A stretch of 64,000 nucleotides of DNA. Origin: Liolophura sinensis. Its lineage: Eukaryota; Mollusca; Polyplacophora; Chitonida; Chitonidae. Shown here one piece after another: positions 2,842-52,169 of the stretch. The stretch spans positions 19,129,764 to 19,193,763 of the forward strand of contig NC_088306.1 in NCBI RefSeq assembly GCF_032854445.1. Direction: 5' to 3'. Position numbers and translations under genes: made by a program. The notes beneath the pieces are model-generated. The model was not told where the DNA came from. It did no database searches and saw nothing but the letters and a program-made list of their open reading frames with translations. The first letter of the stretch is position 1; each line of letters starts with the position of its first letter.

Positions 2842-5800
2842 CAAAATAAAGAGTCTTATGTTCTTAGACTAACAGAATATTCTGAATATTGAATAACATT
2901 CTAGCATCACTGACAACAGAACTTCTGTTCAAATGAACAGATTATTTTTTGAGTGTAAGAAAGTTACAGTTGCGATAATAATAATAACAATAATAAAAAT
3001 TTCTCTCGAAGCGCATGTATATACTAACTTCATTGTATATAAGCAGTGTGTTCTGAGATGCGCCAGATGCAAATCCTTTTTTCCTCCCAAGCATTTTGTA
3101 CGGATTTCCGTTCTTTTTCATCAGCCGAAATTTAATAAGTTCAGCGTCAAGATACATTTATCTGCTATAATATCGGCAAATCCAGCGGACGTTAAATGTA
3201 AATGTATTAAATCCCGATGTTAGCGCTTCTGTAAATTTCTTCATGTTCGTACAGACACCATATATACAGGCCTATAATCTGATCAAGCATTGTTGTCAAA
3301 AGCTGTTTGGCGAAGATATTTATCAAAATAATTGCCGGTACCTCTCTTAGCCTAGTTTTGTGATAAAATTGATAATTGTGGCAGGTGGAAAACAGTGTAT
3401 ACGGGGGATGATCTTGACAGGAAACGGGTCTGGCATACAGATAAACCGGACACATGAGGGAAGTGTTGAACCAAAGCTTCTCAGGCCAGATATCCGCGTC
3501 GGACAAAGGCACATTGTCCTGCATGGCGATTGTTCAAGTGGAAACTTTGCACGTCGCCCATGAGATTTGCCGCTGCAATGGGCAGTCTGAGGAAACGGGT
3601 TGGGGACGTTTAGTTAGGCTTTTCAAAAACGTCCCTGTGGCCCGCATGGATATAATTCCACGAAAAAGTAATTTTGTTATGACATGTTTAAATGACATGC
3701 GGATGCAGTATACTGGTAGGGCGTATACACAAATTGCTGGAGATCACCGGAAATTTGTCGGCTCACATACCATCCGAGACGCTGAGGTGTCAATCATAAT
3801 ACTTATTTGTAATTATCAAACGCCGCAATACGCGCGAGGCTATACAGAGCGCCCGTATATTGTAAACGGGATATCCGGTGTTCAAACCTGACTCAGGTCG
3901 TGGAGAAGACGTCAATCTTGATATACTTCCTACATCACTATTGTGCATCGATTGTTATTCAACGCTGTACTCGATCAAGCCAGTTTTATGAACTTTGGCA
4001 AGTTACTAACGAACTTTTCCAGGCGTTACATACAAGTTATCAATTAATGCGCAAACGCCAACACGAGCGAATAGATCGCCGTCGTCATTGTCGCTGAGGT
4101 CCCCAATAATAAGAAAAGTGAATCCCTGCCCAAGGCTGGTACTGAACCTGCAACTCGTGTGCCAGGCTTTGGACAGGGAATTCGTACATTCAACCCTTTC
4201 ACTGTTGTGTGGGGGAGGGGGGGAGGGGAACTGGTAACAACAAGCGGACAACCGCTCGTGCAGAGTTGGAGCAGTCTAACGTTCGTTGAAGACTTGTCTT
4301 GCACAATAAGGTACGTTACATATTGTGAAAGTTCGTCACAAACTTCAAAGGTCAGTGGTATCTATTATTAGTGATGGGCTGTATAATGTACACTTTCATT
4401 ATCTCAGCTTTTACCATCACCATGATATGCATGAAATATTGCTAATGTGGCGATAAGCCTAATCATTCATGCAAGTTTTACACATCCACACTAGTCTTTT
4501 CATGTCTCCAAATCTTGGCAGTACCAGAACATCGACCACTTCCATGGATATATTTATATATAGAGTAGTTATGACCGCTTGGAAAACGACTGACTTCACT
4601 CAGCAGCTAACAGATCTTGTATCCCTCCATCCTTGGAGGAATGAGGTCCATGTCTAACAAACTTGAGCCTCGAGCTAATTTCGGCGAAATACCGGTACGC
4701 TATTAGTCTGTTCATTTTAACAGCAAGTCTGTTGTCTAAGTGACGATAGACTGTATTCTGTTATTGTTAACTATATTGTCATATTAAATATATCCGGTCA
4801 ATAATACATTCCGCATGTCGAATTAATAGAATAGGGGGTGCTATGTTTAATAAAACAAACTGCTTCATATTAAAGAATACATTCTAGCGTCAGACAAAAG
4901 ATTTTCTATTATATTTAACAGGTAATTTTTTGGCGCGTAAGAGGTATATCAAAAATTCTCCTTCTCGCAAATGAACTTAGACAACTCCAATGACCAAAAC
5001 AAAAAATGACTCTTCTGTTTTTTTTTTCTTTGTGCATGTATGGGCAAATTTCCAGTGGTCAAACCTCCTGCCAGTTGACGTAGACTTTGCAGTGAGTTTG
5101 CCATCAATGCATATACTAAGTAATGTCACTTCAACCATAACACCTTAAAGAGTTTCTAGACTAGTTCTGAGGAGAAGGTCAGTGATGATGATACAATCAA
5201 TCACTGGACCAGTCATTCAATCACTACAATGAGCAACAATAATACACAGATCTATCTTAACTTATTTATTATTACAAAGAAATGACGATGTAGGTGTCGT
5301 GATGATGACACAAATTAGTATACTTAATTAATTATTAACTGTTGTATTTGAATGGGCTGTATACAGATGCAACTTAATATATGCTAAAAAAGGACGACAA
5401 TTTTAGGGAGTTCTATGTTCAGAATACAGAATCCGTCACTCAAAATGAAAATTTCCTTCAGAAGAAACCTAAAGATTAAAACTTGTCCGTTTGTATTATG
5501 CCAAAAACCCAGTCATCATGTACATCATCCTCTTCCACTTGGAAAAAAAATCTGCACTTTTAAAACTTCAGAGTGCATTTCAATATTTCATAAATACCTT
5601 TTTGTTATTAATTACATCACATATTTTCACACACAGACATGTTATTATATAATGGTTCCTCATCTGAAGACCATCGCTTTGTTTTGAGAACTAAGCCTGG
5701 GTTATCTCCCTTTCGTCCGCATATCGACGAGAGTTACTTCCCTTGTCACAAATCTCCTTATGACACAGTTGACAAGGAATAAACACTCTGTAGGATTGGA

Positions 5801-6300: not shown

Positions 6301-6398
6301 TTAGGCGAGAATTGGGTCCTGTGGTGCATAAGGCCTTTTACACACGTACACTTTGTGGTTAGACACTGTTATCACATACATGATGTCCTCCCATACCA
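6301..6398 (-). CDS. LAMTOR4: LAMTOR4 coding exon 3 (terminal coding exon)
   Basis: Acceptor 'tatgtttcag' at 6399 and beyond (minus strand); the frame continues VVWEDIMYVITVSNHK, then YVCKRPYAPQDPILA and a TAA stop at 6303-6301. It aligns with the human C-terminal strand segment. The first ~48 nt of this exon plus its acceptor form the unit of the adjacent minisatellite; only this copy continues into the complete reading frame. Confidence 0.95.
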
Positions 6399-9300
6399 CT
6401 GAAACATAAAACACATGCCTAGTGGTTAGACACCGTTAACACTAACATAATGTCCTTCCACACCACTAACACATAAAACACACATCCTGTGGTTCGACAC
6501 CTTTATCACACACATAATGTCCTCTCACACCACTGAAACACAAAACACACGTCTTGTGGTTAGACACTGTTATTACACACATGATGTCCTCTCACACCAC
6601 TGAAACATAAAACACACGTCTTGTGGTTAGACACCGTTATCACACACATGATGTCCTCCCACACCAATAAAACATAAAACGCACATCCTGTGGTTCGACA
6701 CCTTTATCACACACATAATGTCCTCTCACACCACTAAAACATAAAACACACATCCTATGGTTCGACACCTTTATCACACACATAATGTCCTCTCACACCA
6801 CTAAAACATAAAACACACGTCTTGTGGTTAGACACCATTATCACACACATGATGTCCTCTCACACCACTGAAACATAAAACACACGTCTTGTGGTTAGAC
6901 ACCGTTATCACACACATGATGTCCTCCCACACCAATAAAACATAAAACGCACATCCTGTGGTTCGACACCTTTATCACACACATAATGTCCTCTCACACC
7001 ACTGAAACATAAAACACACGTCTTGTGGTTAGACACTGTTATCACACACATGATGTCCTCTCACACCACTGAAACATAAAACACACGTCTTGTGGTTCGA
7101 CACCTTTATCACACACATGATGTCCTCCCACACCACTAAAACATAAAACACACATCCTGTGGTTCGACACCTTTATCACACACATAATGTCCTCTCACAC
7201 CACTGAAACATAAAACACATGCCTTGTGGCTAGACACCGTTATCACACACATAATGTCCTCCCACACCACTAAAACATAAAACACACATCCTGTGGTTCG
7301 ACACCATTATCACACACATGATGTCCTCTCACACCACTGAAACATAAAACACATGCCTTGTGGCTAGACACCGTTATCACACACATAATGTCCTCCCACA
7401 CCACTAAAACATAAAACACACATCCTGTGGTTCGACACCATTATCACACACATGATGTCCTCTCACACCACTGAAACATAAAACACATGCCTTGTGGTTA
7501 GACACTGTTATCACACACATGATGTCCTCTCACACCACTAAAACATAAAACACATGCCTTGTGGCTAGACACCGTTATCACACACATGATGTCCTCTCAC
7601 ACCAATAAAACATAAAACACATGCCTTGTGGCTAGACACCGTTATCACACACATGATGTCCTCCCACACCAATAAAACATAAAACACACATCCTGTGGTT
7701 CGACACCTTTATCACACATATAATGTCCTCTCACACCACTGAAACATAAAACACATGCCTTGTGGCTAGACACCGTTATCACACACATGATGTCCTCTCA
7801 CACCACTGAACATAAAACACATGCCTAGTGGTTAGACACTGTTATCACACACATGATGTCCTCTCACACCACTGAAACATAAAACACACGTCTTGTGGTT
7901 AGACACTGTTATCACACACATGATGTCCTCCCACACCAATAAAACATAAAACACACATCCTGTGGTTCGACACCTTTATCACACACATAATGTCCTCTCA
8001 CACCACTGAAACACAAAACACACGTCTTGTGGTTAGACACTGTTATTACACACATGATGTCCTCTCACACCACTGAAACATAAAACACATGCCTTGTGGC
8101 TAGACACCGTTATCACACACATGATGTCCTCTCACACCACTGAAACACAAAACACACGTCTTGTGGTTAGACACTGTTATCACACACATGATGTCCTCTC
8201 ACACCACTGAACATAAAACACATGCCTAGTGGTTAGACACTGTTATCACACACATGATGTCCTCTCACACCACTGAAACGTAAAACACACGTCTTGTGGT
8301 TAGACACTGTTATCACACACATGATGTCCTCTCACACCACTGAAACATAAAACACACGTCTTGTGGTTAGACACTGTTATCACACACATGATGTCCTCTC
8401 ACACCACTGAAACATAAAACACACGTCTTGTGGCTAGACACCTTTATCACACACATAATGTCCTCTCACACCACTGAAACATAAAACACACGTCTTGTGG
8501 TTAGACACTGTTATCACACACATGATGTCCTCTCACACCACTGAAACATAAAACACACATCCTGTGGTTCGACACCTTTATCACACACATAATGTCCTCT
8601 CACACCACTGAAACATAAAACACACATCCTGTGGTTCGACACCTTTATCACACACATAATGTCCTCTCACACCACTGAAACATAAAACACATGCCTTGTG
8701 GCTAGACACCGTTATCACACACATAATGTCCTCTCACACCACTGAAACATAAAACACATGCCTTGTGGTTAGACACTGTTATCACACACATGATGTCCTC
8801 TCACACCACTAAAACATAAAACACATGCCTTGTGGTTAGACACTGTTATCACACACATGATGTCCTCTCACACCACTGAAACATAAAACACACGTCTTGT
8901 GGTTAGACACTGTTATCACACACATGATGTTCTTCCAGACCACTGAAACATAAAACACATGCCTAGTGGTTAGACACTGTTATCACACACATGATGTCCT
9001 CTCACACCACTGAAACGTAAAACACACGTCTTGTGGTTAGACACTGTTATCACACACATGATGTCCTCTCACACCACTGAAACATAAAACACACGTCTTG
9101 TGGTTAGACACTGTTATCACACACATGATGTCCTCTCACACCACTGAAACATAAAACACACGTCTTGTGGTTAGACACCGTTATCACACACATGATATCC
9201 TCCCATTACACTGAAACAAAAAAACAGATCTTGTGGTTAGACACTGTTATCACACACATGATGTCCTCCCACACCACTAAAACATAAAACACACATCCTG

Positions 9301-12300
9301 TGGTTCGACACCTTTATCACACACATAATGTCCTCTCACACCACTGAAACATAAAACACATGCCTTGTGGCTAGACACCGTTATCACACACATAATGTCC
9401 TCTCACACCACTGAAACATAAAACACATGCCTTGTGGTTAGACACTGTTATCACACACATGATGTCCTCTCACACCACTAAAACATAAAACACATGCCTT
9501 GTGGTTAGACACTGTTATCACACACATGATGTCCTCTCACACCACTGAAACATAAAACACACGTCTTGTGGTTAGACACCGTTATCACACACATGATATC
9601 CTCCCATTACACTGAAACAAAAAAACAGATCTTGTGGTTAGACACCGTTATCACACACATGATGTCCTCTCACACCACTGAAACATAAAACACATCTTGC
9701 GGTTAGACACAGTTATCACACACATGATGGTCCTCTCACTCCACTGAAACATAAAACACACGTCTTGTGGTTAGACACCGTTATCACACACATGATGTCC
9801 TCCCATTACACTGAAACAAAAAAAACAGATCTTGTGGTTAGACACCGTTATCACACACATGATGTCCTCTCACACCACTGAAACATAAAACACATCTTGC
9901 GGTTAGACACAGTTATCACACACATAATGTCCTTCCAAACATTTTCAATTTCTCATGATGAAATTAATAAGTACCCTCAATTTTAGAAACATACTGAAAT
10001 CTACAGTCAAGTTGTTTCAGTGACAGATGATGGAATAATGACTTTTTACCCATCAAGAAGGACGACACACAGTAATGGATGAATTCACTTAACAATATTT
10101 ATTTATTTATTTATTTGATTAGTGCTTTTTATGCTGTACTCAAGAATTTTTCACTTATACAACAGCTGCCAGCATTATGGTGGGAGGAAACTGGGCAGGA
10201 CCCGGGGGGAAACCCACAACCATCCACAGGTTGCTGGAAGGTCTTTCCATGTATGGCCAAAGTGCGCCTAACAAAAAATGAGGTTCTTAATACATTTGTG
10301 TAACAAATTTAATGAGATGTGTAGGGACAGGAAAACCAGATATACATGTACACTACACTCATCTTACCTGACACTCGCTTGAAGGTGTCTCGCCTGTCAG
10401 ACAACTTTACTTTGGAAGTTGTCTGAGCGAGACTCATGAAATAATTGGCTCGTCTCTCATCGTTCTCTAAATCACCGCCAGACTAAAATAACAGAGCAAT
10501 ACCAAATTTTTATTTTTGTATTTACTTCATTATTTACTTCATTATTTACTTCATTATTTATTCATTCATTAATATGTTCATTTATTTCTTTGACGTTTTA
10601 AACCTTACTCAGGAATGTTACTTAACGATACGAAGGCAGTCAGCATTATGATGGGAAGAAAACCTGGCAAAGACTGAGGGAAATCAACAATCATCTGCAG
10701 ATTGGTGACAGAACCTTTCCTTGTATAACTGGAGAGTAACTTTGTTATTTCTTTGTTCATTTCATTTGATTTATTTACTTATTTATTTGATTGGTGTTTT
10801 ACGCCATACTCAAGAATATTTCACTCATTCAACGGCGGCCAGCATTATGGTGGGTGGAAACCAGGCAGAGTCCGGGGGAAGTCCATGACCATCTGCAGGT
10901 TGCTGACAGACCATTTTACTTGAATGTTTAAAGCTGTGTTTTACAATTTTTCACTTACGAGGCTAAATGTACAATTCAGCCATGGGTGAAACTTTAACTC
11001 ATGTTATTTAATACCGTATTTGATGGTGGTCACATTTATGTATACATTCTTGGGTTTGAATGTCGTACTTAACAATTCCTTAGTCATATGTTCGATGAGA
11101 AATAATTAGGTGTGAGAACATACATATACTGTGTCATCTTGTGGCAAGGCGAGTCCATGTCTCTAAATTTAATTATTTGATTGGTGTTAGAACTTTCTGA
11201 AGAATATTTCACTTTAATGACAGCACAGAGCCCGGGGGAAACCCACAACTATCCGCAGGTTGCTGCATGAGTTAAGACTTGAACTCACAGCCACTGCATT
11301 TGTGGGAGGCTCCTGAGTCATTGAACCGTGCTGGCATGCTAATCCCCTCTGCAAATGGAAGCCCATCCATGCCACTTAAGTGATTCTGCCACTGAAGTAT
11401 CATGCTGAAGGCACTAGGCATGAAGCCCACCCTGTCAAATTGCACTGACACTGGGCCAACCAGTCCTGTCTCCTTTCTCTAACCTCTCTGTTCTGAGCTT
11501 CAAGTAAGGCAAAAACAGGTACCTTGTTTTGAAGAAGTGTGATCCCAGGTCTTTGGACTTCGAGGTGGATGCTCCATTACGCTACCGAAGTAGACTGCCA
11601 GATTTATGGGTGGAGGAAACTGCTCTGTTTTATTTTAAGCTTCAAGCTATTTTGCTTATACCAAATTGATGAGAAAGCTCAATGATTATTGATGGATGGG
11701 GGCTTAAAGTTGATTTAAAAATTCTTCATTTCACAGTGTCTCCATTTAATAGGTCATTTCCAATGCTGTCATATTTACAGTGCTGTATCACTGGAATGTC
11801 ATGCCAAAGAAACCAAACAGTATACCAAATTTAGTCCCAGTATACTGCCACTGTACAATCTTTATTGTTCTGCTGAGCTACATACAGGGAGGTGCCAAAA
11901 CTGTCTAGTTTAAAGCAGAGGCTTCATTAATTTCAGAAAGGTTATGTATAATGACACCTCTACATATAAAGTGAGTGAGTGAGTGCTTGGGGTTTAACGT
12001 CGTACTCAACAATTTTTCAGTCGACGACGAAGGAATCTTTAAGGTGCATGTACGTGTAATGTGCCTCCTTGTTGCGGGATGGATTTCCACCGCGATTTTA
12101 TTTAGTGCTGCTTCACTGAGACGACTTACCAAAGGCAAGTAAGCCGCCCCGCCCGAGCCATTATACTGATACGGGTCAACCAGTCGTTGCACTATCCCCT
12201 TCATGCTGAACGCCCAGCAAGTCTTAGGTGTGACTTGATCAATGCATTGATCCTGGATCTACCGGTCCCGAAGCGGATGCTCTACCAACTGTGCTATCCG

Positions 12301-13157
12301 GGCCGGTCCACAAATAAAGCTACATGTATATATCTTGATTTTGGAGTGCCGGGCACATCAATACTTGATGTCATACACTGGGCTCTCAATGCTAGCTCTG
12401 GGTATGCTCGCCTGCCCACCCACTGCTAACCACCATAGGCAAAACCCTGAAGGATCAATGTTTGTCACTGTATTTTCTTGTCACTGTAATAAACTTTTAC
12501 CTGTGCAAAAATGTGTTGGTTTTATTTAATCTTACCAGTATTTGTGTTGGCAGATTATGCAGCCATTTGGTCAATGTTGCTGCGATTCAAAACGAGACCT
12601 GCTGTAGTAACGTAACTTCTACTTGAGTTTTTGGAGGGCTGACCAGACATGGAACTAAACTGTTGATCTCTTGCTTATGGGGCAGACATGCTGCCATTCT
12701 TATTTTAGGGTAGATCAAATAAGTACCTATCACAAACTATCAGCCTTGTATGTGCATGTTTTACTGTTCTACATCAGTAATAAAGTTACTAAAATTTATA
12801 AAACCTGACAACTTTTTTCAAACTTTAGAATAAATGAAACAATATAAATAATACAATTACGAGTCTGATATTTACCGAGAGGCCATAATTAAAGCTTTTC
12901 TTGATAAATAAAAAAAAATCTGATTTGATTACCGAATGTGTATTTATTGCCCCAAACCTCAGGTAAAGCCTCTTTAAAATGCAGCCCCAAAGCTGAACTA
13001 CGCTGATTAGTATCCGTAATCATGACATTTTAACAATTTTATTGCACGCTACCTCCAAAGCATACAGCAAAAAACTTACGGCAATCACTGCCCCTTCTTC
13101 AGTAAGGACTAGATATCCAAGGGAATCCTGTATTCTCTCTAGCCCCTGGGTAGCCAT
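6301..13157 (-). CDS. LAMTOR4: LAMTOR4, late endosomal/lysosomal adaptor of the Ragulator complex (whole locus, 3 coding exons)
   Basis: Small roadblock-fold subunit of Ragulator. In animals this complex anchors Rag GTPases on the lysosome surface for mTORC1 activation and binds BORC. Three exons join with consistent phases: 13157-13080 (78 nt, phase 0), 10482-10368 (115 nt, leaves one base) and 6398-6301 (98 nt with stop). They give 96 residues; the human protein has 99. Recognition rests on the N-terminal run TQGLERI...LGYLVL (residues 3-18), GGDLENDE at 28-35 and FKRVSVV at 60-66, each close to the vertebrate protein, and on a YxxKRPY segment near the C-terminus. An acceptor-like site at 13175 implies a further 5' non-coding exon towards UVRAG. 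Intron 2 (6399-10367) is mostly an exon-derived minisatellite. No clear poly(A) signal was seen just past the stop. Confidence 0.96.
6399..9935. repeat. 67-bp minisatellite, ~53 units, derived from the LAMTOR4 exon 3 splice acceptor
   Basis: Strict 67-bp period measured on 'gtggtt' (6355, 6422, 6489). Read on the minus strand, each unit is about 19 nt of intron end ('gttttatgtttcag') plus about 48 nt matching the start of LAMTOR4 exon 3. Subtypes differ at the acceptor (CAG, TAG or TTG) and at 'tgtgag' versus 'tgtggg'. A 134-bp dimer is repeated at 7209-7342 and 7343-7476, which shows higher-order duplication. Units beyond about 9200 are more degraded. Confidence 0.95.
10096..10259 (-). mobile_element. 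SINE family 1, 5'-truncated
   Basis: The plus strand shows a TTTA-repeat tail, 'actcaagaatttttcactta' and 'cagcattatggtgggagg', then family body sequence. The tRNA-like head is missing. It lies in LAMTOR4 intron 2. Confidence 0.85.
10368..10482 (-). CDS. LAMTOR4: LAMTOR4 coding exon 2
   Basis: Acceptor 'gttattttag' precedes TCT GGC GGT; the donor is 'gtcag|gtaaga'. The exon encodes SGGDLENDERRANYF to TFKRVS and leaves one base (G) that completes a Val codon with exon 3. Confidence 0.95.
10556..10725 (-). mobile_element. SINE family 1, old truncated copy
   Basis: Diverged match to the family body ('cagcattatgatgggaagaa', 'catctgcagattggtgacag') behind a TTTATT-type tail. It lies in LAMTOR4 intron 1. 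Confidence 0.7.
10768..10915 (-). mobile_element. SINE family 1, 5'-truncated
   Basis: Clear match to the family tail and body, with 'attggtgttttacgcc' and 'cggccagcattatggtggg'. The head is absent. Confidence 0.85.
11035..11600 (-). mobile_element. SINE family 3 copy with a nested SINE family 1
   Basis: The outer parts (about 11035-11165 and 11351-11600) match the element at 15737-16100: 'ggcgagtccatg', 'ccactgaagtat', 'actgggccaaccagtc'. The inner part 11169-11350 is a minus-strand SINE family 1 with its tRNA-like head. The order shows family 1 inserted into an existing family 3 copy. Confidence 0.7.
11169..11350 (-). mobile_element. SINE family 1, nested
   Basis: Body landmarks 'gagcccgggggaaaccca' and 'atccgcaggttgctg', then a head with 'gacttgaactcacagccact' on the plus strand. 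The tail side is degraded. Confidence 0.75.
11969..12315 (-). mobile_element. SINE family 2 (tRNA-derived), full length
   Basis: On the minus strand it starts with a tRNA-like head ('gatagcacagttggtagagc' box A region; 'ggtagatccaggatc' box B region; 12230-12310). It ends with 'acgttaaaccccaagcactc' and an ACTC-repeat tail at 11969-11985. It lies in LAMTOR4 intron 1. Confidence 0.85.
12316..13079. other. LAMTOR4 intron 1 remainder
   Basis: AT-rich intron sequence between the SINE and coding exon 1. No other feature was recognised. Confidence 0.5.
13080..13157 (-). CDS. LAMTOR4: LAMTOR4 coding exon 1
   Basis: Starts MATQGLERIQDSLGYLVL and ends with GCC before the donor GTAAGT (minus strand). 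The 26 codons end in phase 0. The start ATG has a good context (accATGG). The exon probably begins at 13174, after 'ttatttcccag', so the ATG is not in the first exon of the transcript. Confidence 0.95.
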
Positions 13158-17300: not shown

Positions 17301-20300
17301 CTGTCCCTTCTATGCTTTGAAGGCAAAGTAAACACTAAAATGAAGTATATATCAGATAAAAGACCATCACACACTGTCCAGGAAAGTATTTTGATTTATT
17401 TATTTAGAATTCTTCCAGCCAAGTAATTTAAAATGGTTTTAGAAGGTGAGATTCTGTGGCAGTCTGTACCGACTGAGATTTTATATGTGACGTCATATCC
17501 ATATTCTCTGCTGGAAATAGTTTGTTTCATGGTCCATTCGGCTAATGCCTTCTTAGCTTTTTATGATATGCATTTAGAATGATGAAGTCCCGCAGTCTGC
17601 TTGTTAAGTGATAAAAACCTCATGTGACGTCTATTGCCCCAATATGGTCAGAAAAGACTACCATAGAATCCCACCTTTCGTATGCATTTTACTGGGTTGA
17701 AGACTATTTTTGTGGACAGTGTTTAATAGTCTGTCGTCTGACATATATATATACCACGTATGTGAGTGGGATACATGTAAGTTCCTGCATTTAAGTAGCA
17801 ATATGTATTTATATGTAAAAGTAGAGTATGTTAGCAAATTTTATTTAACAAGAGACTGCTAATACTAAGTTTGTCTGCACGCTTACATTTGAATGAAGTA
17901 AATGTTAAATTTCTCTATACATGGTTCCGTAGTTAAGATGCCATGTTTTTATTAACTCATGTATGTGTGTGTGTTCATGTATGTTTGCTTTTTATGTTCA
18001 TTGCAGCATTCTACACCAGTGAGAAGATTATTGGCTCCTTGGTAAGTTTTTACTTCACAGATAACATGTGTAGAAATGAATAATGTCGATATAATAAAAG
18101 TGGGTTTTAAATCAATGAAGCATCCCCCATTTTAATCTGATTAGTGTATGAATTAATCTACTGTTTGCGTGAAGTGAGTTATGTTTGTGTATTTTAGTAC
18201 ATAATTTTACTTATTTTACTTGTATTGATTATAGTTTACCTGCTGATTAATTCTTTTGACAGTAATGCAGATCATAAAAATCAAAATTCTAGCAATTCAC
18301 TTGAGAGATCTTGTTGGTATCCAGTGTTAGCCGGTTAGGCTGCAGCAATAGGTTAGGATTTTTGTTAGATACCTACAGAGACCTGTGTTTACTCTGACTA
18401 TAGGTTTAGCCAGCTACATGGTTTCATCTACCTTTCTAAGAGGATAGGTAAAGTAGAACAGTAGTGCTATTTGAGCTCCCTGTTTCATACACTTTTCATA
18501 CCCATGTTTAAGGGCTCTGCCGGGTTTCCCCCCACCCACAAAGCTGAACACTATTCTATAAATGAAATATTTTTCAGTACGACAAGAAAGCAGATTCTAT
18601 ATAAAAAGAAAATGCTTGATGAAAAGAACAAGGTTCAATAGTTGAGGTCATTTTATTGCCAACTTTATTCAGTGTCGTCACAGATTTATGATTGACCCTG
18701 TCTGTTTTATTAAATTACCTTTAATCATGATTGTTGGCATGTATTTCAGAACCCCAGCTGGCAAAGCTTTGACCTTTCTAGATTGGGTGAAGAAGTTGAT
18801 ATGGCTGCAAAGTGTATCCTTTCTGTTGTGTATAGGAATCGTATTTGGTCTCATTTTTCTCTCAGGTTCTGTTAGGTATCTTATATCCCTGAATCCAACT
18901 GCCTTTTAAGTAAGAAGTAGACAATTACAAAAACAAATTGTGAACCAGTAAAATATGAGTTTATATGGGCTGTTTTATCGGATGTTTACATTTTGGTTTT
19001 AGTGTAGTGTGAATTTTAACTTTTGACACTGGTGATGGTGTCCCTTCTGCAAGATTCAAACACATTTTTTGATGATGATGTGTCTCATCTACGTGATTTG
19101 GACACATTGTTTGATGATTGGGTGTCTCATCTACCTGATTTGGACACATTGTTTGATGATTGGGTGTCTGATCCGGCGCATTCAGACACATTGTTTGATG
19201 ATCTGGTGCCTCATCTACCTGATTTGGACACATTGTTTGATGATGGGGTTTCTCATCTCCTGGAATTGTACATTTTCTTTGATGATGGGATGTCTCATAC
19301 TCCGGACTTGGACACATTGTTTGATGATGGTGTGCCTCATCCACCTGATTTGGACACATTGTTTAATGATTGGGTGTCTCATCTGGCGCATTCAGACACA
19401 TTGTTTGATGATCTGGTGCCTCATCTACCTGATTTGGACACATTGTTTGATGTTGGGATGTCTCATCTTCCGGATTTGGACACATTGTATAGTGTTGGGA
19501 TGTCTCATCTTCCGGATTTGGACACATTGTATAATGTTGGGATGTCTCATCTTCCGCATTTGGACACACTGTATAATGTTGGGATGTCTCATCTTCAGGA
19601 TTTGGACACATTGTATAATGTTGGGATGTCTCATCTTCCGCATTTGGACACATCGTATAATGTTGGGATGTCTCATCTTCAGGATTTGGACACATTGTAT
19701 AATGTTGGGGTGTCTCATCTTCCGGATTAGGACATTTCGTTTAATAATGGGGTGTCTCATCCTCTAGACTCCGACACATTGGTTTGATGATGCAATGTCT
19801 CATCTACCAGATTTGGACACATTGTGTGACGATGTGAAATAAGTCTCATAAGTCAAATAAATAAATGAACAGATCCTTGACAGTGGCACAGTTGTTGTTG
19901 TACGGGTGTGGGGAGGCCATGACAAGAAGTTTCGTCTGTTGTTAGAGTGGCAGGTACACTTCTCTGGTCTCGTTTTCCTCACAGAAAAGGTGAGTGTTTG
20001 ATTTGGCTAGTTTAGTACCTGCTTGTGATGCCATCATTGCCAATTTGATATTACCATTGCTAATTTGGCATGTACATTACAAAATTTTCAAACTCTGAAC
20101 ACTGTACTTCCTGGGTTACTAAGCGTAATCTGGCAGGTATCTAATTCTGACGATCAGTTTTGAAGGAAATTAAAGGACTGACATACACATGCATGCATTA
20201 TGATACTTACATAAATATATGCATGCATACATGTATACAAACATATTGAGATTCCTTCTGTGTGGGAAGGTCTGCCAGCAACCTGTGGCTGTTTGTGGAT

Positions 20301-24100: not shown

Positions 24101-27100
24101 GTGACAGACTTATTATTTAGCCTTCATAAATGGGCGCTATGCATTTTGACAGTAAATATTCAAATTCTTCAGTTAGTGTGCTAGCGCAGTGTAATGACCC
24201 AGTAGCCTCTCACCAATGTAGTCGCTGTGAGTTCAAGTCCAACTCATGTTGGCTTCCTCTCCGGCAGTACGTGGGAAGGTCTCTCAGCAACATGCGGATG
24301 GTAGTGGATTTCCCCAGTGAGAATCTTGAGTAAAACACCAATGAAATAAATAGATAAATCAAATTCTTCAACCTTTTCAGGGGCCTCTGTGGCTCAGTTG
24401 GTTACCGCGCTAGAGCAGCGTAATAACCCAGGAGCCTCTCACCAATGCGGTCGCTGTGAGTTCAAGTCCAGCTCATGCTGGCTTCCTCTCCTGCCCCAGC
24501 AACCTGCGGATGGTCATGGGATTCCACCAGGCTCTGCCCGGTTTCCTCCCATCATAATGCTGGCCGCTGTGATATAAGTGAAATATTCTTGAGTACGGCA
24601 TAAAACACAAATCAAATAAATAAATAAATCAGCCTTTTCAGCCGCCTATGCAGCCTATACTTCAAAACACTTTGGGAGATATATGACATTTTTAGAAATG
24701 ATTTGTACAGTTTTATAAAGCTTGCATCTTTAGTGACATAAATAAATCATTTTAGTTTCGTTTTCATAGGTTTTCACCAGGTTGACTTACTTCATGGTTA
24801 CACATATTGAACTGCGATGACAGCTCAAGAGTGTCTAGATGGATTATATGTATTTGCTCAGCCAATAAAATAAAAATGCTTTATTTAACATGCAGGCTTG
24901 GAACTAAAGGAAAACTTTACAGCCATGTCAAACCAGAGAGAGGAATTGTTGCATGGGAAACAGCAACATATCGTTACGAGGTAAGTCAGACTACTCAGTC
25001 AGTTTGTGTTGCTATGAAAAAAAAACAAAACAGAAACATGTTGATGCACCAATAAGCTTAGCATAATGTAATAAGCTATTAAGCATTTTTGCTCGGAAAA
25101 AGGTTGCATATTTTGACGTTTCAATATTTCGACAAAATTTTATTTGTGATCTTATCTTAAGTTGATAAATTAAATTTTGTCGAAGTATTGTGTAGCAAAA
25201 AAAAATAACTTTTTAATTGTCATCTTCAGTATCAGAATTGTCATCTTCATTATCAGAAGATGACAAATAAAACCAGGTGAGCTATCCAGTATACTTTAAA
25301 TGCCTTGTTTTCCTTTGCTGTCTTCTGTTTTTTAGGGAAACGCTTGTGAAGACTAATGCTCAATTAAACATGAGACGGAAGCAACTTATAGAAGAATTGG
25401 CTACTTACATCTACCCCATCAAAGAGGTAAGAGCCCGATTGCTCAAAGTGTGATAAGGCCACGCCAATGTGAATTGTTGTATTACATGGAGAATAAACAT
25501 GCTTAAATGCTGAAGGTGGATGTGAAAATAAAACTTGAAAATCATCTTATTTGTGGAAAATGTGAAAAATCCCACCATTTTTGACTGGACAAAATGAAAA
25601 GGTGACTTTTCAGTTTTATATTTTTTCCATTTTTTAATATTTTCCAGGGAAAAACAAAATAAATTTGATGTTGGCTAAGCTTAGAATTAAATAGATTCTG
25701 GATTTTTAACTTTTCACTACAGTTCGACCGATGGAAAATACTTTGACCTTTTTTAACCGCTTAAAGAGTACTTCTCTCTACCTGGTTTCCTCCCTCGTCG
25801 CTGTCGTATAAGTGAAATATTACTGGGTATAGCGTGAAACACCAATCAGATAAATAAATAAGAGTACTTCTTTTTTGTCAAAGTTTAAATCTTTTTTTTT
25901 TTTATTGTTTACAACTTCCAAGGTGTGACATTGCTGTCCATTATGAAGAGAGTGTATAGATGCTGGGTTTACTGTAGAAAATGTGGTTATTGGTTTACCA
26001 GTGACTGTGACTTACTTTGGAACTATTCTAATTCCTCAACCTTTTTCATATATGAAACAGTAACTGTCAGTGCCTTTGATTCATGTTTTTAATATGATTA
26101 TGGAGACAGAACTACAATGGTGGGTTTGGCCAGTTTCAATTTTGTCAGTCTGCACAGAATAATGACCTCAGAATTTGCTTGAATGATCACCTTGTAAAAA
26201 ATGTGAAAAGGTTAAAGAATTACAGTAATGGCTGAAAGTTTCCCCAACTTTTGACCAGTATGAGGCTGCACGTTCGTATCCATATTGTGCTGATTCAGTT
26301 GTGAACTTACTAATGGCTGAAAGTTTCCCAACCCTTGACCAATATGAGGCTGCACGTTCGTATCCATATCGTGCTGATTCAGTTGTGAACTTACTAATGG
26401 CTGAAAGTTTCCCAACCCTTGACCAATATGAGGCTGCACGTTCGTATCCATATCGTGCTGATTCAGTTGTGAACTTACTAATGGCTGAAAGTTTCCCAAC
26501 CTTTGACCAGTATGAGGCTGCACGTTCGTATCCATATCGTGCTGATTCAGTTGTGAACTTACTAATGGCTGAAAGTTTCCCAACCTTTGACCAGTATGAG
26601 GCTGCACGTTCGTATCCATATCGTGCTGATTCAGTTGTGAACTTACTAATGGCTGAAAGTTTCCCCGACCTTTGACCAGTATGAGGCTGCACGTTCGTAT
26701 CCATATCGTGCTGATTCAGTTGTGAACTTACTAATGGCTGAAAGTTTCCCCAACTTTTGACCAGTATGAGGCTGCACGTTCGTATCCATATCGTGCTGAT
26801 TCAGTTGTGAACTTACTAATGGCTGAAAGTTTCCCAACCCTTGACCAATATGAGGCTGCACGTTCGTATCCATATCGTGCTGATTCAGTTGTGAACTTAC
26901 TAATGGCTGAAAGTTTCCCCGACCTTTGACCAGTATGAGGCTGCACGTTCGTATCCATATCGTGCTGATTCAGTTGTGAACTTACTAATGGCTGAAAGTT
27001 TCCCAACCTTTGACCAGTATGAGGCTGCACGTTCGTATCCATATCGTGCTGATTCAGTTGTGAACTTACTAATGGCTGAAAGTTTCCCCGACATTTGACC

Positions 27101-30100
27101 AGTATGAGGCTGCACGTTCGTATCCATATCGTGCTGATTCAGTTGTGAACTTACTAATGGCTGAAAGTTTCCCCGACCTTTGACCAGTATGAGGCTGCAC
27201 GTTCGTATCCATATCGTGCTGATTCAGTTGTGAACTTACTAATGGCTGAAAGTTTCCCAACCTTTGACCAGTATGAGGCTGCACGTTCGTATCCATATCG
27301 TGCTGATTCAGTTGTGAACTTACTAATGGCTGAAAGTTTCCCCGACATTTGACCAGTATGAGGCTGCACGTTCGTATCCATATCGTGCTGATTCAGTTGT
27401 GAACTTACTAATGGCTGAAAGTTTCCCCAACTTTTGACCAGTATGAGGCTGCACGTTCGTATCCATATCGTGCTGATTCAGTTGTGAACTTACTAATGGC
27501 TGAAAGTTTCCCCGACCTTTGACCAGTATGAGGCTGCACGTTCGTATCCATATCTTGCTGATTCAGTTGTGAACTTACTAATGGCTGAAAGTTTCCCCAA
27601 CTTTTGACCAGTATGAGGCTGCACGTTCGTATCCATATCTTGCTGATTCAGTTGTGAACTTACTAAAGGCTGAAAGTTTCCCCAACTTTTGACCAGTATG
27701 AGGCTGCATGTTCGTATCCATATCGTGCTGATTCAGTTGTGAACTTACTAATGGCTGAAAGTTTCCCAACCCTTGACCAATATGAGGCTGCACGTTCGTA
27801 TCCATATCGTGCTGATTCAGTTGTGAACTTACTAATGGCTGAAAGTTTCCCAACCTTTGACCAGTATGAGGCTGCACGTTCGTATCCATATCGTGCTGAT
27901 TCAGTTGTGAACTTACTAATGGCTGAAAGTTTCCCAACCTTTGACCAGTATGAGGCTGCACGTTCGTATCCATATCGTGCTGATTCAGTTGTGAACTTAC
28001 TAATGGCTGAAAGTTTCCCAACCCTTGACCAGTATGAGGCTGCACGTTCGTATCCATATCTTGCTGATTCAGTTGTGAACTTACTAATGGCTGAAAGTTT
28101 CCCTAACCTTTGACCAATATGAGGCTGCACGTTCGTATCCATATCGTGCTGATTCAGTTGTGAACTTACTAATGGCTGAAAGTTTCCCCGACCTTTGACC
28201 AGTATGAGGCTGCACGTGCGTATCCATATCGTGCTGATTCAGTTGTGAACTTACTAATGGCTGAAAGTTTCCCCAACCTCTGACCAATATGAGGCTGCAT
28301 GTTCTTATCCATATCTTGCTGATTCAGTTGTGAACTTACTAATGGCTGAAAGTTTCCCCAACCTTTGACCAGTATGAGGCTGCACGTTCGTATCCATATC
28401 ATGCTGATTCAGTTGTGAACTTACTAATGGCTGAAAGTTTCCCAACCCTTGACCAGTATGAGGCTGCATGTTCTTATCCATATCTTGCTGATTCAGTTGT
28501 GAACTTACTAATGGCTGAAAGTTTCCCAACCGTTGACCAATATGAGGCTGCATGTTCGTATCCATATCTTGCTGATTCAGTTGAGAACTTACTAATGGCT
28601 GAAAGTTTCTCAACCCTTGACCAATATGAGGCTGCATGTTCGTATCCATATCTTGCTTATTCACTTATGAACTTACTAATGGCTGAAAGTTTCCCAACCT
28701 TTGACCAGTATGAGGCTGCACGTTCGTATCCATATCTTTCTGATTCAGTTGTGAACTTACTAATGGCTGAAAGTTTCCCCAACTGTTGACCAATATGAGG
28801 CTGCACGTTCGTATCCATATCGTGCTGATTCAGTTGTGAACTTACTAATGGCTGAAAGTTTCCCCGACCTTTGACCAGTATGAGGCTGCACGTTCGTATC
28901 CATATCGTGCTGATTCAGTTGTGAACTTACTAATGGCTGAAAGTTTCCCCGACCTTTGACCAGTATGAGGCTGCACGTTCGTATCCATATCATGCTGATT
29001 CAGTTGTGAACTTACTAATGGCTGAAAGTTTCCCCAACCTTTGACCAGTATGAGGCTGCATGTTTGTATCCATATCATGCTGATTCAGTTGTGAACTTAC
29101 TAATGGCTGAAAGTTTCCCAACCGTTGACCAATATGAGGCTGCACGTTCGTATCCATATCGTGCTGATTCAGTTGTGAACTTACTAATGGCTGAAAGTTT
29201 CCCAACCCTTGACCAATATGAGGCTGCATGTTCTTATCCATATCTTGCTGATTCAGTTGTGAACTTACTAATGGCTGAAAGTTTCCCAACCCTTGACCAA
29301 TATGAGGCTGCATGTTCGTATCCATATCTTGCTGATTCAGTTGTGAACTTACTAATGGCTGAAAGTTTCTCAACCCTTGACCAATATGAGGCTGCATGTT
29401 CGTATCCATATCTTGCTTATTCACTTATGAACTTACTAATGGCTGAAAGTTTCCCAACCTTTGACCAGTATGAGGCTGCACGTTCGTATCCATATCTTGC
29501 TGATTCAGTTGTGAACTTACTAATGGCTGAAAGTTTCCCAACCCTTGACCAATATGAGGCTGCATGTTCGTATCCATATCTTGCTGATTCAGTTGTGAAC
29601 TTACTAATGGCTGACAGTTTCCCAACCTTTGACCAGTATGAGGCTGCACGTTCGTATCCATATCGTGCTGATTCAGTTGTGAACTTACTAATGGCTGAAA
29701 GTTTCCCCAACTTTTGACCAGTATGAGGCTGCACGTTCGTATCCATATCTTGCTGATTCAGTTGTGAACTTACTAATGGCTGAAAGTTTCCCCAACTTTT
29801 GACCAGTATGAGGCTGCACGTTCGTATCCATATCGTGCTGATTCAGTTGTGAACTTACTAATGGCTGAAAGTTTCCCAACCCTTGACCAATATGAGGCTG
29901 CATGTTTGTATCCATATCTTGCTGATTCAGTTGTGAACTTACTAATGGCTGAAAGTTTCCCAACCCTTGACCAGTATGAGGCTGCACGTTCGTATCCATA
30001 TCTTGCTGATTGAGTTGTGAACTTACTAATGGCTGAAAGTTTCCCAACCTTTGACCAGTATGAGGCTGCACGTTCGTATCCATATCGTGCTGATTCAGTT

Positions 30101-33100
30101 GTGAACTTACTAATGGCTGAAAGTTTCCCAACCTTTGACCAGTATGAGGCTGCACGTTCGTATCCATATCGTGCTGATTCAGTTGTGAACTTACTAATGG
30201 CTGAAAGTTTCCCAACCCTTGACCAGTATGAGGCTGCACGTTCGTATCCATATCTTGCTGATTCAGTTGTGAACTTACTAATGGCTGAAAGTTTCCCAAC
30301 CATTGACCAATATGAGGCTGCACGTTCGTATCTATATCGTGCTGATTCAGTTGTGAACTTACTAATGTCTGAAAGTTTCCCCAACCTTTGACCAATATGA
30401 GGCTGCACGTTCGTATCCATATCGTGCTGATTCAGTTGTGAACTTACTAATGGCTAAAAGTTTCCCAACCCTTGACCAGAATGAGGCTGCACGTTCGTAT
30501 CCATATCGTGCTGATTCAGTTGTGAACTTACTAATGGTTGAAAGTTTCCCCAACCGTTGACCAGTATGAGGCTGCATGTTCGTATCCATATCTTGCTGAT
30601 TCAGTTGTGAACTTACTAATGGCTAAAAGTTTCCCAACCCTTGACCAGAATGAGACTGCTTGTTCGTAACCATCTCTTTCTTATTCACTTATGAACTTAC
30701 TAATGGCTGAAAGTTTCCCAACCTTTGACCAGTATCAGGCTGCATGTTCGTATCCATATCTTGCTGATTCAGTTGTGAACTTACTAATGGCTGAAAGTTT
30801 CCCCAACCCTTGACCAATATGAGGCTGCATGTTTGTATCCATATCTTGCTGATTCAGTTGTGAACTTACTAATGGCTGAAAGTTTCCCAACAGTTGACCA
30901 GTATGAAGCTGCATGTTTCTATCCATTTCCTCGAGGTGACTTTTCGGCAATTATATTTCATTTTGTTGTTGTTTTTTTTTTTTGCAGATGCCAGATAGCC
31001 AAGATCATACAATATGTGGGGTTAAGCTCCCTAATGCAGAAGAGTTTCATGGTAGGTAACGCCCTCAAAACTGGCTTTCCCATTCAACTTTTAATACAGG
31101 TTACAGAGTAAAATTTTCATGTGTATTAATCATGTGTTCGAGTCCAATCCTGGCTCTGTTGGTGTCTACATTATACGTTAGATGGCAGCAGGATACCTTC
31201 GCAGGGTGGTGGCTCTAACGCATGTCAAACTGAAATTCCTCCAGACAGATCGTCAACCTATACAATGTAGCGCAGTCACTTCATGATGATGATTGGACCC
31301 AAGCTGTCATGCACAATAACCCCAGGTGATGTCGCTACATGTACCTATGACAGTTTGTGTTGTGTCATTTGACTTCCTATGATACATACACCAATGAGGT
31401 CTGTGAGCAACCTGCAGATGGTCGTGGGTTTCTGCTGGTCTCTGCCGGGTTTCCACCCACCATAATACTTGCCGCCATCATATAAGTGAAATATTCTTGA
31501 GTACTGCGTAAAAAACACCAAGCAAATAATAAATAATTGAAGGAAACGCTACTCTTTACCCACACATACCTTCTGGCAAGCTTGTGTAATGTGGGTTTTT
31601 ATTACACAGTTTTCACACCTTTTGCCTGTCTTTGAACATTGTGGTGATTGTGTGGTTCAAAACGCAGTATGTGTTTCAAAGGCCATTCATAGCAACATTT
31701 ATTTATTCACATTGAAGGGCAGTGTTCATAAGGTGACGTTACTGCAAACCGACTCTCTACATATTCTTTCGAAATTTATAAAAATTACTATTTTTAGTTT
31801 GCTATCTAAAGTTTGCTCCATACACATAGTTTAATTGATTTATTTTTGGTGTATAATAAATAGGTTATTGGATATGTTATTGGTCATGTGGACTTAATCT
31901 ATTTTTTTTTCCTTTGTGGGAGCGCAAACTTGCGAGCTTGTTCACGCTTTCGGGCCACACCAAAATAGAACTCAGTAACCTATAATTTTATGTGTGTGGT
32001 CTGGCAGATGACCTCTCTACAAAAACAGTATGCAGGATCAGGATTTTCACAGTATGTAATCGTTGATCAAAATGGCCAAAACATTTGACTAAATGTGGGG
32101 GTCAGCCAGTAAGAAGAAACTCTGCTGATTTTGTTTTAAAAGATTTTTCTTCCCTGAATACGATTAAAATATCAGCATAAAACACCAATAAATTAAAGGA
32201 ATAAGGAATATATTTGTTTAAGTTCATCCTTGATCTTATAGATTCCGTTGTGGGAAACTCATAAAAGAGCACATCGTTTTTTCAGTCATATCAGTTTGAG
32301 ATTTTGCCTTTTTCTAAACTCATATTAGTTTGAGATTTTGCCTTTTTCTCTTTACATTCAGGTCATGATGATAGCAGTATAGCTGTTGCCCTGGGTTACA
32401 CCTGTCACATGGTTGTGATGATGTCAGAGTTTCTAGACACACCCCTTTGGTACCCGCTAGAACATCGAGGATCCAAGTCTGTTATACGAGATCACATTAT
32501 ATCCAAACTGGCTGACAAAGACAGAATGTAAGTTTGCACATTCTTCTCGATCTCCATGCATGTTTTAATCTCTGGTATGAAGGTCAGCCATTGCTGTACA
32601 CAAGATAACATTATATCCAAACTGGCTGAAAAAGATCACATTATATCTAAGACTACTTCATATCCAAATTAGCTGAAAAAGATTACGTTATATCCAAACC
32701 AGCTGAAAAAGATTACATTTTATCCAAGATTACATCATATCCAAACTAGCTGAAAAAGATGGCATTATATCCAGTCTAGCTGAAAAAGAAAGAGAAAGCT
32801 TGTACACTCTTCTCAATCATTCATATTACAATCTCTGATATAAATGACAGTCATTATTGGCGGCTGCAGCTGTAAGTGATAGTCTGTTTATACCAATTTT
32901 GAAATGTAAGGCCATCATTTAAATATAAATTATTTTTCTTGCCAGAGTTCGTTGGAGCATTTTAATGAATTTTTTAAATGACAAATATATAATTTCTGTA
33001 CTGTTTTAGGTTTGTTTTGTATGGCAAAAGCAAGGACAGGATCCAATTTCACTATGGTGTCTACCTCTTGAACAAAAATATAAGCCAGGTAAGTCCTTGA

Positions 33101-50636: not shown

Positions 50637-52169
50637 TACTATCCAAAAAAAGAAACGCATAACCCGGTTTTTTGCGGAGGTGATGCAGTCTTTTCAATTA
50701 TGCATAACTAAATAAGAATTGCTATTCTGCAAATATTTTTTTACACAGATTAAGGAAGGGTCCATATCTAGACAACAAGGCCATCAACTTGAGGTAAGAC
50801 ACTCACAATGAGTCTCCCACTTGAGTGGAATGTCAGTATCTGTTGTGACCACCACGGGCACGAATAACAGTTCTGACACGCCTTGTCATGGACTGGCTGA
50901 GACGCTGGATTGAGGCCTGGGGAATGTTCTGCCACTCCTCCTGCAAACATGCAACTTGCTCTTTAAGCGTTTGGGGTTGAGGTTGACGTTGGCGTAGACG
51001 TCGATCAAGTTCATCCCACAGATGCTCAATTGGGTTAAGATCCGGGGAACGGGACGGCCAGGGTAGCACATTTACCTTGTTTTCGGTGAGGAAGTCCCTT
51101 GTGACACGTGCCGTGTGCGGTCTGGCGTTGTCCTGCTGGAACAACTCCCGCTGAACGTCAATGACAGGTAAGAGGTGTGGCTGCAGGATGGTGTCTCGGT
51201 AGCGTACGGCCGTAAGATTTCCCTGAACTTGGACAAGATTTGTACGACCAGTATACGATATTGCTGCCCACATCATCACACCCCCTCCACCAAATCTGTC
51301 CACTTGGCGTACGCAGTTAGGGACATAACGTTCGTGAGCACGTCTGTAAACCCGGTTTCTACCATCACGTCTCTGCAATAGGAATCTGGACTCATCACTG
51401 AACCAAATGCGTCGCCAGTTCCGTAGATTCCATGCAGTCACGTTGTTACACCATCGGAGGCGATTGGCGCGATAGTGAAGCCGCAGCACGATCCCAACAT
51501 AGGGCCTCCTGGCTCTCAGTCCATGTTCCCTCAGCCTGTTCCGCACTGTCTGACCTGATATCCTCCTCAGTCCCGGTATGCTGGCTGCTGTGCTTTCAGC
51601 TGTAGCACAACGGTCACGCAAATGGAGGACCCTTATGTAGCGATCTTGGGCTGCTGTAGTGACACGTGGTCGACCTGAACGCCGACAATCATTTGTTGTC
51701 CCAGTATTGTTGTAGCGGGCAGCACGCCGTGAAATCGTGCTCTGGCTGACGTGTAGACGCCTAGAAATGGACGATTGGGACTCTCCAGCTTGAAGTCTTC
51801 CACTGGCAATATTTCTTGTGACAGTGTCAAGACGTGGCATGTTGAATCAGCTTGAAAACACCACTTGAAAGACGCCGATTTCTGGCCCGAAGTTGCGGTT
51901 TTATAGTCACACACTTCATGCTTTCCATGCGTAAGTTTGGCGTGTAAGACTGCACGTGATGCAGTGTGGTGCTGTATTTTTTACTTCTTCCAAAAACGGC
52001 CTCCAAACTCAGCTTTTTCAACCAAGAAATGTTTTGAGGAATAAAATGTGTGCTAACTGTGACTATTAACAATATTAAAACACATTTTGCTCATGAAATA
52101 AAGACAAAATGTATTTATTTCATTTTAAAAAAAAACAAAACACCTATGCGTTTCTTTTTTTGCATAATA
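50637..52169 (-). mobile_element. Tc1/mariner transposon, 1533 bp, apparently complete
   Basis: Ends are 25-bp terminal inverted repeats sharing 'caaaaaaagaaacgcata' and differing at two positions. TA duplications lie at 50635-50636 and 52170-52171. The same site without an insert exists in other array units ('aattatagtttaggtg'), which confirms both ends. It carries one transposase gene on the minus strand. Confidence 0.97.
50833..51840 (-). CDS. Tc1-family transposase, 335 aa, intact
   Basis: Cut-and-paste transposase that binds the element's inverted repeats and inserts at TA. The N-terminus has a helix-turn-helix of the Tc1 type (SQSSISRRLHVSQSTISRRA, residues 21-40), then the GRPRV hook (56-60) and a second helix-turn-helix region to about residue 110. 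The catalytic triad is visible as D149 (WFSDESRF), D237 (QQDNARPHTA) and E272 (SPDLNPIEHLWDEL), spaced as DD34E. The length is the usual one for the family. No stop or frameshift, so it may be active or recently so. It starts 329 bp inside the right inverted repeat. Confidence 0.97.
   Translation of the reverse strand: MPRLDTVTRNIASGRLQAGESQSSISRRLHVSQSTISRRAARYNNTGTTNDCRRSGRPRVTTAAQDRYIRVLHLRDRCATAESTAASIPGLRRISGQTVRNRLREHGLRARRPYVGIVLRLHYRANRLRWCNNVTAWNLRNWRRIWFSDESRFLLQRRDGRNRVYRRAHERYVPNCVRQVDRFGGGGVMMWAAISYTGRTNLVQVQGNLTAVRYRDTILQPHLLPVIDVQRELFQQDNARPHTARVTRDFLTENKVNVLPWPSRSPDLNPIEHLWDELDRRLRQRQPQPQTLKEQVACLQEEWQNIPQASIQRLSQSMTRRVRTVIRARGGHNRY

Follow-up and report, generated by a model that had tools for sequence, protein, structure and literature searches.

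We describe a tandem repeat array in intron 2 of LAMTOR4 in the chiton Liolophura sinensis, lying within a stretch of 64,000 nucleotides (nt) of contig NC_088306.1 (positions 19,129,764 to 19,193,763 of the forward strand; hereafter the window). The array consists of 53 head-to-tail units of 67 base pairs (bp), read on the minus strand, which combine the end of intron 2 with the beginning of exon 3. In our judgement it is quite probably a 'mirage', as tandem repeats across exon-intron borders are named in a report on amphioxus globin genes (PMC3087553; this and the other papers cited by accession are drawn on in excerpt), that is, a minisatellite that was seeded across the intron 2/exon 3 border, expanded and was tolerated. 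The homology between units and exon, the order of the units, the lack of a second place for them in the genome search, the loss of splice motifs from some of them and similar arrays at unrelated exons are matters of direct observation. Taken as a whole, this exon-edge minisatellite is real and large; its kind is known, if little known, and most likely it has no function of its own.

The array and the gene that holds it

A first-pass annotation, made from the sequence of the window alone, had named the gene as LAMTOR4 and the exon beside the array as its third, and the searches bore this out (Table 1). The joined translations of exons 2 and 3 find LAMTOR4 chains of the PDB, with E 1.6e-7 at best, and a human LAMTOR4 sequence, used as the tblastn query, recovers all three exons, exon 1 with 79% identity over 24 amino acids (aa). 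The window belongs to a 609-megabase (Mb) assembly in 632 contigs; a protein search of the whole genome, with E up to 10, gave 40 matches, comprising the three exons once each and 37 within the array. It revealed no further copy of LAMTOR4, for instance a processed one from which the actual splicing could have been read. The predicted protein has 96 aa, for which no Pfam family was found at E 0.001.

Wraparound alignment resolves the 53 units, the partial one being farthest from exon 3 and lacking its first 9 columns, while a few others have 66 bp. Tandem Repeats Finder (TRF) reports a single array at 6353-9933 (period 67, 53.6 copies, 89% matches, score 5360), reaching 46 nt into the true exon 3, and the count of about 53 given by the first-pass annotation is thereby confirmed. 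The array occupies 3535 of the 3969 nt of intron 2 (6399-10367), or 89%. The unit consensus, taken from acceptor to acceptor, opens with TGGTGTGAGAGGACATCATGTG, similar to the first nucleotides of exon 3, and closes with TTTATGTTTCAG. The units had been described as an intron end followed by about 48 nt of exon 3; this composition stands, but the length was slightly high, the contiguous match being 46 nt, and 5 of the 52 acceptor positions upstream of the true site lack the AG. Beyond the 46 nt there is a 4-nt gap, after which ACGTGTGT (about 8 nt) is common to exon and units; since the similarity resumes past this gap, about 55 of the 67 nt of a unit are derived from exon 3, leaving about 12 nt of intron end with the acceptor.

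In the alignment against chance that had been set beforehand, the first 46 nt of exon 3 agree with the units at a median of 41 positions (best 44; lowest among whole units 37), as against a mean of 21.4 and a maximum of 26 for 200 shuffled exon starts aligned to the array. The best match of the exon start in the window outside the array reaches 25/46. A genome search with the unit, which scored the best candidates only and skipped very common words, returned 15 matches and one candidate place, the array itself; with 15 of 15 matches inside it, no copies of a dispersed satellite or transposon were found elsewhere. On its exon side the array ends in the authentic intron 2/exon 3 border, and the true exon is, as had been noted, the last in the row and the only copy that continues through the full coding sequence to the LAMTOR4 stop. 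Within the single haplotype at hand the 53 units fall into 35 distinct types with a mean pairwise identity of 0.90, and a run of three identical consecutive units recurs 10 units away, all of which is compatible with turnover within the array. A gradient of unit age toward exon 3 is weak and opposite to the simple expectation, units closer to the exon being slightly less exon-like (Spearman -0.28, p 0.045).

The dozens of decoy acceptors foreseen by the first-pass annotation are indeed present: the 52 upstream positions comprise 37 with CAG and 10 with TAG besides the 5 without AG, and the motif at the place of the branch point reads TCTAACC in 30 (all with AG), TCGAACC in 13 and TCTAGCC in 9. 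Before the true exon stands TCTAAC, which we take to be a branch-point-like motif; its second A lies 27 nt before the end of the acceptor, within the portion of the last unit that comes from exon 3. As this motif is a copy of exon sequence, it is probably in that last unit that the true exon has its branch point. All 47 AG-bearing decoys would alter the predicted protein if used: 41 would give a product of 65-66 aa, and the remaining 6 one of 79-108 aa with its end foreign or missing.

Arrays at other exon edges

The array is not special to LAMTOR4, and of greater interest than the array itself is that this genome holds others of its kind. Among 64 matches, a sample that is not random (54 kinase matches in 50 loci and 10 kinesin matches), four show a tandem array across an exon edge, three on the acceptor side and one on the donor side. 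For L052 and L075, the two given a shuffle control, the junction pattern was found 0 times in 100 shuffles each. The three kinase arrays all fall among the 24 partial matches L047-L066, none among the 30 best-scoring ones (L017-L046); a 15-bp repeat of 1.9 copies at L036 lies inside an exon and was left out of the count.

Such arrays are no more frequent at exon edges than chance would have it. With arrays counted from a period of 20 and from 2.5 copies upwards (1.8 for the kinesin matches, a looser limit), coverage is 11.7% of the 114 kilobases (kb) around L047-L066 vs 1.4% of the 110 kb around L017-L046. Random placement would thus put 5.46 of 48 match ends within arrays in the former set, 0.80 of 60 in the latter and 2.19 of 20 in the kinesin set, against 3, 0 and 1 edge arrays observed. 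Over the 128 match ends, which are only roughly exon ends and some of which may fall inside exons, the total is 4 against about 8.5 expected, and no excess at exon edges is seen. The simplest account is therefore general minisatellite growth, with exon edges among its seeds.

The window itself holds a second, degenerate array of this kind, built from copies of the end of an exon of another gene, presumably UVRAG-like. After its last exon-end copy comes one of the intron start, in which the donor is lost; the alignment scores 77, where 200 shuffles reach 23 at most, and the intron part alone 46 against 24 in 500. The two fragments that we regard as UVRAG-like matched no Pfam family at E 0.001. 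Between these presumed UVRAG-like fragments sits an 84-bp minisatellite (26226-30926, 55.7 copies, 95% matches) with long open stretches on both strands, whose minus-strand unit consensus contains TTTCAG and GTAAGT; a 42-bp repeat at 19060-19834 (18.4 copies) likewise has long open stretches on both strands. Inspection by eye of a few hundred bases on either side of these two repeats recognised no adjoining source exon. Elsewhere in the window the minus strand carries an open frame of 337 aa at 50833-51846, which to us looks like a Tc1-like transposase. The genome also has eight haemocyanin domains of molluscan type within a stretch of 12 kb, one of which matched haemocyanin chains in the PDB, in keeping with a mollusc as host.

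Table 1. Features of the window, by position, and exon-edge arrays of the kinase and kinesin survey. Junction-like hit counts include the true site and allow up to 7 mismatches.
Feature	Position in window	Strand	Basis and remarks
True LAMTOR4 exon 3, coding to stop, VVWEDIMYVITVSNHKVYVCKRPYAPQDPILA then stop	6301..6398	-	PDB match, tblastn, genome protein search
Acceptor AG of true LAMTOR4 exon 3	6399..6400	-	sequence
67-bp array, 53 units	6399-9933	-	within intron 2; TRF and unit alignment
Branch-point-like TCTAAC before true exon 3	6425..6430	-	sequence and unit alignment; putative function
LAMTOR4 exon 2, 115 nt	10368..10482	-	acceptor TTTTAG, donor GTAAGA
LAMTOR4 exon 1, coding part MATQGLERIQDSLGYLVLTEEGAVIA	13080..13157	-	tblastn; donor GCC/GTAAGT
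Exon of another gene	32362..32527	+	edges by eye; ends at donor GTAAGT
Second array, degenerate	32602..32855	+	copies of end of exon 32362..32527
L052, kinase			acceptor side; 7/7 junction-like hits with AG
L050, kinase			acceptor side; 8/9 junction-like hits with AG
L063, kinase			donor side; 6/7 junction-like hits with GT
L075, kinesin			acceptor side; 4/5 with AG; array runs off the fetched stretch

Origin of the array and its alternatives

We propose the following course of events for the LAMTOR4 array. Its seed would have been a tandem duplication that spanned the border between intron 2 and exon 3, and slippage or unequal exchange may have expanded it to 53 units. Throughout, the original exon 3 would have been kept intact by selection because its protein sequence is needed, while the copies would have accumulated on the intron side and drifted there. 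Splicing to the true exon would persist, with the decoys little used, because only the true site leads into the remainder of the terminal exon and would be recognised through exon definition. This genome is rich in minisatellites, some of which happen to begin at exon edges. Minisatellite growth with one real copy kept leaves the true site attached, in every case, to the remainder of its exon, and this constancy is no evidence of a mechanism.

Several observations weigh against this model. Locally there is no reason for the decoys to be ignored, since 30 of the 52 keep both AG and TCTAACC and 10 match the true site exactly over the last 21 nt of the intron, 4 of these with TCTAACC kept as well. 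In 39 of the 52 units a donor-like GTGAGA stands at columns 5-10, four nt past the acceptor, so that units might serve as cassette exons. Past the LAMTOR4 stop the first AATAAA comes only after about 1 kb, at position 5265 of the window, and it is therefore not evident that a poly(A) signal close by assists. Finally, the amphioxus mirages have 2-7 units where the excerpts give a number (which they do not for Adh3 and troponin C), as against 53 here (PMC3087553, PMC3902484).

Of the other explanations the one that fares best, though we think it unlikely, is that the decoys regulate LAMTOR4, some transcripts using them to yield the 65-66-aa protein or a messenger RNA with a long tail, with array length setting the amount of full-length product. 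It accords with the AG retained by 47 decoys, with the branch-point-like motif kept in 30 of them and with the truncation predicted for 41; furthermore, an intronic minisatellite in C. elegans has been linked to multiple splicing decisions (PMC4039745). Against it stand the 22 of 52 decoys with an altered branch-point motif, the 5 without AG, and the occurrence of like arrays at unrelated exons at a rate no higher than chance. The conservation of the splice motifs also speaks against it. Columns that hold the branch point, the pyrimidine tract or the AG have a minor-base fraction of 0.057 on average, vs 0.065 in the other columns, an ordinary value, as 49% of circular shifts are at or below it; by part it is 0.085 for the branch point, 0.046 for the pyrimidine tract with AG, 0.046 for the exon part (columns 1-36) and 0.117 for columns 42-54. 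The circular-shift test thus gave no excess conservation of splice-motif columns as a sign of selection on the decoys, and for this reason a specific function of the array is not favoured.

It is still less likely that the length of the array is in part an assembly artefact. The 35 distinct unit types, the lack of a strong higher-order period and the contig of 31 Mb make simple duplication by the assembler improbable; the count of units could still be off. We give slightly less credence to the units being small cassette exons or recursive splice sites (TTTCAG followed by GTGAGA at +5) through which intron 2 would be removed stepwise. In its favour, the GTGAGA of 39 of the 52 units is absent from the true exon 3. 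Against it, acceptor and donor-like site are 4 nt apart, so that 4 nt would remain after every step and the reading frame would shift; moreover, GTGAGA is wanting in 13 of 52 units, and there is no signal of conservation. Concealment of the decoys by RNA structure is just as improbable, for although pairing is predicted around the acceptors in the two stretches that were folded, their folding energy is ordinary, with z of -1.15 (26 of 200 shuffles equal or better) and -0.05 (44 of 100).

A broader reading of our results is more tentative, and we incline against it while holding it quite possible: that several per cent of the exons of this mollusc have splice-site arrays at an edge, one conserved gene, LAMTOR4, having 47 AG-bearing decoy acceptors ahead of its last coding exon, that its spliceosome must rely on pairing across the exon and not on local site strength, and that such arrays steadily supply new exons and introns. 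If the observed rate holds, this species would offer a great number of natural experiments on how the spliceosome chooses among near-identical sites and of how introns and exons may originate from tandem duplications.

Comparison with known systems

Minisatellites with several splice sites have precedents. One in IFI6 (6-16) was reportedly described by Turri in 1995 as carrying multiple splice donor sites, and going by that title it resembles the LAMTOR4 array in that a single minisatellite supplies several splice sites.

In human segmental duplications, internal tandem repeats at exon-intron boundaries are reported, in excerpt, to be able to change splicing (PMC2812944); the LAMTOR4 array shares with them the expansion of a minisatellite at such a boundary, but the human repeats average four units of 30 bp and are tied to new introns in transcripts. 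Among molluscs, a kinase gene of abalone contains a polymorphic intronic minisatellite of 27 bp, for which the excerpted text makes no mention of an exon origin (PMC6905558).

The first-pass annotation knew of no standard feature class for such an array, but one exists in the mirages of amphioxus (PMC3087553, PMC3902484). According to the excerpts, these occur in the globin genes BflGb6 and BflGb9, in Adh3, in troponin C and in PGBD5, the last two described in PMC3902484. BflGb6 has a mirage on the acceptor side, with 6 and 3 units in two haplotypes, and many but not all units of the amphioxus mirages keep AG or GT; regular splicing of the globin genes seems undisturbed, reverse transcription polymerase chain reaction being reported, and mirages have been proposed as a source of new introns (PMC3087553). 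The mirages of Adh, troponin C and globin are reported to leave splicing undisturbed (PMC3087553, PMC3902484).

The LAMTOR4 array has four features of a mirage: it is made of minisatellite units, these span the border, the authentic border lies at its edge, and AG is retained in part. As in BflGb6, the units join an intron end to an exon start, and as in amphioxus not all of them keep the splice dinucleotide (47 of 52 with AG here), and arrays of both the donor and the acceptor side occur in the chiton genome, again as in amphioxus. Among the matches listed in our literature search, beyond whose scope lie most subscription papers, there was no report of mirages in molluscs and no use of that name for repeats outside lancelets. 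Mirages in a mollusc would make them look like a general consequence of genomes rich in minisatellites. The amphioxus examples belong to cephalochordate genes, whereas the present array lies in a mollusc and before a terminal coding exon; what is new is thus the phylum, the 53 copies and this place in the gene, the kind of repeat itself being already known from lancelets.
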